Assembly: GCA_007125985.1 (NCBI GenBank)
Contig: SLCE01000006.1
Span: forward strand, 1 to 61,097
Direction of reading: 5' to 3'
From: Ectothiorhodospiraceae bacterium
Lineage (GTDB): Bacteria; Pseudomonadota; Gammaproteobacteria; Nitrococcales; Aquisalimonadaceae
Length of the DNA stretch: 61,097 bases
Part shown: positions 33,400 through 35,232 of the stretch, one piece after another
Position numbering within the stretch: the stretch's first letter is position 1
How the letters are laid out: every line of letters starts with the position of its first letter
Translations under genes and position numbers: made by a program
Notes under the pieces: model-generated
Database searches by the model: none
What the model was told of the DNA's origin: nothing
What the model saw: the letters and a program-made list of their open reading frames with translations, nothing else

Positions 33400-33888
33400 A
33401 TGGGGACGCTGCTGACCAGCAATGGCGAAACCGAGACCTGGTATCGGCTTGTGATGGAGGCGGAGCAGACGGCGCAGCAGTATCTGCCCGAGATCACAGA
33501 GAGTTACCTGGTCTTTTTGCTGATGCGTTACCTGAGGCGCCGGGATCTGCTGCGCCGGGTCATGGCGCTCACCTATCTGCGTGCCATGCACAGTGCGGGA
33601 AGACTTCAACAAGAGCGCCTGCAGGACGTGGGGGATCAATGTCTGATCCTGGCGGGTCTGTTTCCAGGGCAGGCGGAACGCCGCCGTGTCGCGGTGGACT
33701 ATTACGTGGCCCTGGGGCGTGGCGCCTATTCCCGCCGCGCGGCCATGGACTCTGGTGCTGATGCCTCGGTTTACGCCAGTCTGGCGGAAACCTTTCCGGA
33801 ATTGATCCGCGTTATGCGTGCAATCCGACCGGATGAGCAACTTCCGCCCGCCCCGCCCCACGGCGTGCCGCAGGGGCGGAACCACTGA
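33400..33888 (+). CDS. Conserved-looking helical protein, function unknown
   Basis: 162 residues; GGGGAGGA lies before the ATG. The protein is all-helical in appearance: [53 protein letters not shown], then [20 protein letters not shown]. The last 20 residues are Pro/Gly-rich and probably disordered. There is no signal peptide or membrane segment. It is 67 bases upstream of a PP-loop ATPase and TusA-like gene on the same strand, so it may belong to that sulfur-handling group. I do not recognise the family. Confidence 0.75.
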
Positions 33889-33955
33889 GGCATGGCGATC
33901 GGCCCCCGACCATGCGTATCATGTGCGGTTTACCAATAGTCGATCCGCGCCTCTT

Positions 33956-35005
33956 ATGACTCGACCGATTCGCGCCGTTGCCCTGATCTCCGGTGGCCTG
34001 GATTCCATGCTGGCGGCTCGCCTGATCCAGGATCAGGGAGTCCATGTGGAAGGCTTGAACTTCTACACCGGCTTCTGTGTGGAAGGGCATACCCACGCCA
34101 TCCGACGCCACGACCGAGACCGCCCGAAACGCAACAATGCCCTCTGGGTGGCCGAACAACTCGGCGTCCCGCTGCATATTGTGGACGTGGTGGAAGACTA
34201 CAAGGATGTGGTGATCAATCCTCGCCATGGTTACGGGCAGTTCATGAACCCATGCCTGGACTGCAAGGGCTTCATGGTGGCGCGTGCCCGCGAATGGATG
34301 GAGCAGCACGACTTCGATTTCATCATTACCGGCGAAGTGATCGGGCAGCGACCGAAGTCACAGCTGCGCCGCAGCATGCCCATCGTCGCCCGCGAATCCG
34401 GTGCCGGCGACCGGCTTTTGCGGCCCCTGTGCGCCAAGCTGCTGGAGCCCACCCTGCCCGAGCGGGAAGGCTGGGTGGATCGTGAACAACTGCTGGACTG
34501 GAGCGGCCGCAGCCGCAAACCCCAGATCGAGCTTGCCGAAGCCTTCGGTTTTGAGGATTACGCCCAGCCTGCGGGGGGCTGCTGCTTTCTGACCGACCCC
34601 TATTACAGCCGCAAGCTGCGGGATCTGTGGCAAGCCCGCGGCGAACGGCGCTATGAGCTGGATGACATCATGTTGCTCAAGGTGGGGCGGCATTTGCGAC
34701 CGCGGCCGCACTTCAAGCTCATTATCGCCCGCGAGGAGGGCGAGAACCGCTTCCTGCAGGGTTATCGACGCGCGTTCACCCACCTGGAGCCCGTGACTCA
34801 TCCAGGACCGCTGTGCCTGCTTGATGGCGAAGCCAGTGACGAAGACCTGCAATTGGCCGCCCGCCTGGTCGCGCGCTTCAGCCGCGGCCGCGAAGCGCCC
34901 TCGGTGACGGTGGCAGTGGCCGGTGCCGGCGGTGCTGACCGTCGGGAACTCTCCGTACCCCCCCTCCCGGTGGAACAGGTCCCGCAAGAGTGGTACATCA
35001 CATGA
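33956..35005 (+). CDS. PP-loop ATPase related to MnmA/ThiI thiouridine synthases
   Basis: 349 residues. The ATP-pyrophosphatase loop is SGGLDS (residues 12-17). NPCLDCK (C100, C103) sits where MnmA has its NPxxxC catalytic cysteine, and GGCCFLTD (C209, C210) where MnmA has the second, so a thiolation chemistry is likely. The rest differs from MnmA: no MnmA-type C-terminal barrel, and instead LKVGRHLRPRPHFKLIIARE with a C-terminal domain of unknown role. The frame is open upstream, but MTRPIRAVAL at 33956 gives a normal PP-loop start. Its stop overlaps the TusA-like ATG. Confidence 0.82.
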   Translation: MTRPIRAVALISGGLDSMLAARLIQDQGVHVEGLNFYTGFCVEGHTHAIRRHDRDRPKRNNALWVAEQLGVPLHIVDVVEDYKDVVINPRHGYGQFMNPCLDCKGFMVARAREWMEQHDFDFIITGEVIGQRPKSQLRRSMPIVARESGAGDRLLRPLCAKLLEPTLPEREGWVDREQLLDWSGRSRKPQIELAEAFGFEDYAQPAGGCCFLTDPYYSRKLRDLWQARGERRYELDDIMLLKVGRHLRPRPHFKLIIAREEGENRFLQGYRRAFTHLEPVTHPGPLCLLDGEASDEDLQLAARLVARFSRGREAPSVTVAVAGAGGADRRELSVPPLPVEQVPQEWYIT

Positions 35006-35232
35006 GCGACCATCCGGTCCTGGTCGACGCCCAGGGGCTGTTATGTCCCATGCCGGTTATCCGACTTCAGCAGGCAGCAGCCGACGCCGAATCCGGAGAT
35101 GAGATCGAGGTGATCGCCACCGACCCGGGCGTACGGGCGGATATTCCCGCCTGGTGCCGGGTCCACGGGCACCACGTCGTGGATATCCAGGAGGAGGAGA
35201 TTACCATCCGGGTCAGGGTCCGCCTTCGCTGA
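35002..35232 (+). CDS. TusA-family sulfur carrier protein
   Basis: 76 residues. LVDAQGLLCPMPVIRLQQA contains the family CPxP motif, with Cys15 as the sulfur-carrying residue. TusA proteins pass persulfide sulfur to thiolating enzymes; in E. coli TusA feeds MnmA via TusBCD and TusE. The ATG overlaps the stop of the PP-loop gene (ATGA), so the two are translationally coupled, which suggests this carrier feeds that enzyme. It could instead serve sulfur oxidation, as some TusA paralogues do. Confidence 0.88.
   Translation: MSDHPVLVDAQGLLCPMPVIRLQQAAADAESGDEIEVIATDPGVRADIPAWCRVHGHHVVDIQEEEITIRVRVRLR

Follow-up and report, generated by a model that had tools for sequence, protein, structure and literature searches.

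Which molecule is thiolated by a PP-loop ATPase that is encoded together with its own sulfur carrier? The question is raised by a locus in a gammaproteobacterial contig (Ectothiorhodospiraceae bacterium, assembly GCA_007125985.1, contig SLCE01000006.1), of which a stretch of 61,097 nucleotides, here called the window, was analyzed. A first-pass annotation had suggested a dedicated enzyme-carrier pair that modifies an RNA or small molecule other than the target of MnmA, the tRNA 2-thiouridine(34) synthase. The evidence presented below names a target absent from that annotation, tRNA 4-thiouridine (s4U). Judged from domains, motifs, gene linkage and genome distribution, the PP-loop protein is very probably a tRNA 4-thiouridine synthase, acting most likely on U8 and replacing ThiI where the latter is absent (probability roughly 0.84).

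Gene organization of the locus

Three open reading frames are located on the forward strand, in the arrangement that had been described. An ORF check found the first, of 162 aa, at positions 33400-33888. The second, encoding the PP-loop protein of 349 aa, spans positions 33956-35005, and the third, encoding a TusA-like protein of 76 aa, spans positions 35002-35232. The stop codon of the PP-loop gene overlaps the start of the tusA-like gene by 4 nt (ATGA, 35002-35005). An alternative GTG start at 33818 would give a longer PP-loop frame; close homologues, e.g. the one in locus L003, align from 33956. Presumed glyQ and glyS genes are found upstream in opposite orientation, and presumed glnA and ntrBC-like genes are found downstream; they serve as markers. 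A search of genome contigs for related loci yielded 484 loci that encode the PP-loop family, which is thus more than a chance ORF. Of these, 80 were kept.

Domain architecture and conserved motifs

The PP-loop protein matches PF03054 at residues 8-127 and PF02568 at residues 6-136. It carries a ThiI/MnmA-type HUP ATPase domain followed by a C-terminal NFACT-R_2 domain (PF18297, residues 244-347, positions 34685-34996; 4e-33, 114.1 bits versus a gathering cut-off of 26.9). The latter stands in for the RNA-binding part of ThiI (THUMP/NFLD). The C-terminal part does differ from that of MnmA, as had been noted, and it can be assigned to a known domain family. In the AlphaFold model (mean pLDDT 89.2, pTM 0.84), residues ~245-349 match the NFACT-R fold of RqcH with Z scores of 14.8, 14.4 and 12.3 (PDB 8s1u, 5h3w, 7aqc). 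Unlike RqcH and NEMF, the window protein is devoid of NFACT-N and coiled-coil parts, and its NFACT-R domain is fused to a PP-loop domain. It also differs from ThiI in the lack of THUMP, NFLD and rhodanese domains and in its linkage to tusA; no THUMP match was found at E≤1, and the PP-loop motif begins as early as residue 12.

The motifs SGGLDS (residues 12-17, positions 33989-34006), NPCLDC and GGCCF are all found in the protein. Among 34 aligned homologues, which are 63-89% identical to the window protein, the cysteines C41, C100, C103, C209 and C210 are invariant (34/34), as are SGGLDS and, within residues 125-136, the segments TGE, GQRP and SQ. In an hhalign comparison, NPCLDC aligns with NPDVLC of MnmA and GGCCF with GICF. 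This pairing and the invariance of the cysteines bear out the earlier statement that the equivalents of both catalytic cysteines of MnmA are kept.

The CxxC formed by C100 and C103 (34253-34264) and the pair C209-C210 (34580-34585), the equivalent of the active-site cysteine of ThiI and MnmA, include the set of a CxxC plus a third cysteine that is characteristic of Fe-S PP-loop thiolases, in all 34 rows. C100 and C103 are accordingly candidate Fe-S ligands, and C209-C210 may provide the third ligand or a persulfide site. In methanogen ThiI, the catalytic domain is described to hold a cluster by means of a CxxC and a third cysteine (PMC5372739); this enzyme, compared by description only, has a different domain plan. 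The motif of C-type MnmA is given as CC-CxxC-C (PMC11784392). None of the five bacterial ThiI sequences in the alignment has the CxxC; in two of them, the active-site cysteine is present as CC.

Relationship to ThiI and MnmA

The catalytic motifs of ThiI, namely SGGxDS, TGE..GQ..SQ, LRPL and the active-site cysteine, are all present in the PP-loop domain. The ThiI-type motif TGEVIGQRPKSQ (residues 125-136, positions 34328-34363) was compared with alignments of ThiI and MnmA; MnmA has TGHYAR at this place, which is absent from the window protein. Gln291 of Thermotoga maritima ThiI is reported to lie in an active-site loop and to contact the ATP phosphates (PMC4041423), and by our own reading it falls within the TGE..GQ..SQ motif. 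The HUP domain and the cysteines of NPxxxC and C(C)F are shared with MnmA, whose C-terminal domains are missing. The NPCxxC of the window protein is MnmA-like and recalls Fe-S thiolases as well.

Profile comparison does not separate the two families (ThiI 6e-10 versus MnmA 2e-10, a tie), and the match to the ThiI model TIGR00342 reaches ~28 bits (28.2-28.4), below the curated cut-off of 264.5. Foldseek lists MnmA (2deu) first and ThiI (2c5s) second. The VIA comparison puts ThiI first, with 4kr6 at Z 16.0 (rmsd 2.4, 160 aligned residues, 26% identity) and 2c5s at Z 15.7 (rmsd 2.6, 160 aligned, 28% identity), followed by MnmA with 2hma at Z 14.1 (rmsd 3.0, 166 aligned, 23% identity) and 2der at Z 13.1. 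The lead of ThiI is small, since YcfA, LarE and others score between 14 and 16 in the same comparison. A phylogenetic tree joins the PP-loop family to ThiI, apart from MnmA and TtcA, with support of 90/84 for what is a weak split between long branches. By motifs and structural ranking, the catalytic domain therefore leans modestly towards ThiI. The label "MnmA-like" of the first-pass annotation is compatible with the tied profiles and is at odds with the ThiI-type motif and the best structural match.

These features leave some room for a different target. The enzyme could thiolate another position of tRNA or another RNA, for example as a 2-thio modification, and its association with RudS described below would then be due to shared ecology or to a further substrate of RudS. 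The tied profiles and the MnmA-like NPCxxC favor such a reading, as does the HUP domain score, which exceeds the cut-off of the MnmA-family Pfam model (45.4 versus 20.6 bits); the ThiI-type motif speaks against it.

Linkage to a TusA-like carrier

The TusA-like protein matches PF01206 (1.6e-21, 76.3 bits versus a cut-off of 28.6) and contains the CPxP cysteine (CPMP with C15, positions 35044-35055). It scores below the TusA equivalog cut-off (NF001423; 52.7 versus 78). To quantify linkage, the 80 kept loci were combined with those from the genome search (145 loci in total) and duplicate proteins were removed; three loci had no room for a neighboring gene. A same-strand tusA gene adjoins the PP-loop gene in 100 of the 109 gammaproteobacterial loci with room and in 19/27 loci from other classes, leaving nine and eight loci, respectively, without an adjacent tusA. 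The linkage with the carrier gene is hence strongly conserved.

The PP-loop gene is also not the only MnmA-like gene of its genome. A canonical MnmA is encoded elsewhere (G000:C25, 274.9 bits), as is a TtcA-type protein above the cut-off (C33, 449.5 bits). Together with the conserved linkage, this supports the earlier proposal of a dedicated enzyme-carrier pair for an RNA that is not the target of MnmA. A canonical ThiI was not found in the window genome, where TIGR00342 matches only MnmA (29.1 bits) and the window protein.

A gene for a CDF transporter is located within 2.5 kb downstream on the same strand in 41 of the 64 loci that extend at least 2.5 kb in this direction; in the loci inspected (among L003-L082; e.g. 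L019:7334-8506), it is flanked by tusA and glnA. The CDF protein used as query gave no match in the window.

Distribution of the PP-loop family, ThiI and DUF1722

RudS proteins remove s4U from tRNA; all tested variants are reported to be active, and none supported growth on 2-thiouracil (PMC11417400). An intact RudS with 2-thiour_desulf and DUF1722 domains is encoded in the window genome (L191:8325-9314, G000:C134). It lies between two ORFs that are presumably a HAD-type phosphatase-like and a CinA/MoaB-like gene. DUF1722 was used as a mark of RudS in the genome survey; the fused desulfidase domain was confirmed for the hit in the window genome, which is one of many hits. The survey covers Pseudomonadota throughout and comprises a class sample of 204 gammaproteobacterial genomes (≥90% completeness) and an overlapping phylum sample of 328 genomes, in which 31 of the 34 genomes bearing the PP-loop family are new. 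Canonical ThiI was called at ≥246 bits; the lowest accepted score is 246.5 and the next one 54.7, which leaves a clean gap.

In the class sample, PF18297 is found in 104 genomes and canonical ThiI in 14, so that genomes with the PP-loop family outnumber those with ThiI by about seven to one. The two never occur together (0/204 versus 7.1 expected). DUF1722 is found in 55 genomes, 48 with PF18297 and seven with ThiI, and in none of the 86 genomes that have neither enzyme, where about 23 (23.2) would be expected. The hypergeometric P for this last count is 7e-17 under the assumption of independent genomes; as the genomes are not independent, such P values overstate the case. Counted by taxonomic family, 51 families contain DUF1722, accompanied by PF18297 in 44 and by ThiI in seven, and in two families (f40 and f41) the member without PF18297 is also without DUF1722. 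Among 14 members of the taxonomic family to which the window belongs, two have DUF1722, and both of these carry the PP-loop gene; the seven members without the gene are devoid of DUF1722.

The phylum sample gives the same picture. The full-length PP-loop family is present in 34/328 genomes and ThiI in 106/328, never together (11.0 expected). DUF1722 is found in 92 genomes, 17 with the PP-loop family and 75 with ThiI, and in 0 of the 188 with neither (52.7 expected). Genomes from other classes of the phylum include some with both the PP-loop family and DUF1722; ThiI is stated to be absent in Alphaproteobacteria in a passage of PMC10965804. In both samples, every genome that has DUF1722 and no ThiI carries the PP-loop family. 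TtcA served as a control: it exceeds its cut-off in 93/204 genomes, and 29 DUF1722 genomes are without TtcA versus 29.9 expected. The distribution of DUF1722 shows no relation to that of TtcA.

Several observations qualify this pattern. More than half of the PF18297 genomes in the class sample (56/104) have no DUF1722, and none of the 145 loci was found to have a DUF1722 gene next to that of the PP-loop protein. The prediction that relatives without the PP-loop gene would have ThiI failed, with canonical ThiI in 0/14 members of the window's taxonomic family; simple replacement is thus not seen there, and a loss of s4U has to be assumed. PF18297 also matches seven of 14 named control genomes, five above the cut-off, presumably through proteins of the RqcH type; almost all matches in the class sample lie in frames of ~350 aa. 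Three weak rows were kept among the 104, namely G041 (short frame with a stop), G093 (two pieces) and G159 (contig end). Dropping G041, which is without DUF1722, leaves the zero counts unchanged. In this 1.4-Mb genome the NFACT-R_2 frame is short and contains an in-frame stop (C1:280563-280727), while the gene of its congener G170 is intact; the gene may be decaying in this small genome.

In Nitrosococcus oceani, the insertion of a DNA polymerase III beta domain gene into a DUF1722 gene (NOC_RS02200) is reported to distinguish the strains AFC27 and C-27 (PMC7285500).

Proposed function and alternative readings

An eraser is useful only where a writer exists, so that the confinement of DUF1722 to genomes with ThiI or the PP-loop family points to s4U as the product. 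This confinement in both samples (0/86 and 0/188) and the randomness towards TtcA also weigh against thiolation of another RNA position, as does the activity of the tested RudS proteins on s4U in tRNA (PMC11417400); such a target is accordingly regarded as unlikely. A second MnmA-like enzyme acting as backup for s2U34 would explain the MnmA-like cysteine positions. It is highly improbable and was rejected, considering the separate canonical MnmA (~275 bits), scores far under the MnmA equivalog cut-offs (39.6 versus 236.95 for TIGR00420 and 44.9 versus 284 for NF001138) and the NFACT-R_2 domain in place of the MnmA C-terminal domain. Just as improbable is a LarE-like thiolation with a small molecule or cofactor as substrate. 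Structural matches do include LarE (Z up to 14.9), but the protein ends in a domain of RNA-binding type, its family and the tRNA enzyme ThiI exclude each other, the family is linked to the tRNA eraser RudS, and there is no consistent metabolic neighbor (glnA, glyQ and a CDF transporter gene are close by).

For the s4U synthase, the following reaction is proposed. The NFACT-R_2 domain would bind tRNA in place of THUMP/NFLD, and the PP-loop domain would adenylate O4 of the uridine with ATP; both steps are suggested by membership of the PP-loop and extra-domain families. Sulfur would pass from a cysteine desulfurase to the neighboring TusA-like carrier and on to the active site, where the presence of the tusA gene suggests delivery as a TusA persulfide. 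There, an Fe-S cluster is probably bound by C100 and C103 together with either C209 or C210; alternatively, C209/C210 may carry a persulfide. The sulfur would then displace AMP to give s4U, which RudS, in genomes that encode it, could later remove. Position 8 is suggested by ThiI and RudS. A further point counts against the s4U reading: the role described for TusA in E. coli concerns s2U34, not s4U (PMC11784392).

The family would probably constitute a second class of s4U synthases with a distinct architecture, combining a ThiI-like PP-loop domain, NFACT-R instead of THUMP, its own TusA and probably an Fe-S cluster; confidence in this fuller description is somewhat lower than in the enzymatic role itself. 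The authors of the RudS study reported RudS groups without ThiI, suggested ThiI-like enzymes of other architecture and left open the source of s4U in these organisms (PMC11417400). The PP-loop-NFACT-R_2 family has the profile of such homologues, and shares with ThiI the same relation to RudS. If the assignment is correct, the family explains the RudS genomes without ThiI in both Pseudomonadota samples, absence of ThiI cannot be taken to mean absence of 4-thiouridine, TusA gains a role outside s2U34, and NFACT-R gains one in the choice of a tRNA modification site.

The comparative evidence for the s4U role is strong, and this evidence was not found in print in the literature searched. A published test of the family was likewise not found in the open-access literature searched; an earlier prediction in an NFACT paper is possible. 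Burroughs and Aravind are said to have noted PP-loop fusions in their 2014 work on NFACT domains. For Thaumarchaeota, proteins with the same Pfam pair, PF02568-PF18297, are taken as 4-thiouridylation enzymes in one sentence of PMC9239080, by annotation and citing a paper on an E. coli mutant; the passage on this domain pair gives no test and no link to tusA or RudS.

The upstream protein

The 162-aa protein encoded upstream had been proposed as a possible third member of the module. It has no Pfam match, and its structure model is helical throughout, with no PDB match at E≤0.001. A homologue is found in 39/116 loci, mostly just upstream of the PP-loop gene. Homologues are present in 59 of 140 gammaproteobacterial genomes, 20 of which are without the PP-loop family, and for this reason membership in the module was rejected and the protein is considered a mere neighbor. 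It is nevertheless conserved: its family shares the motif GDxCLLxSGLFP...YFVxLGRxAY, and a C-terminal His is found in most homologues.
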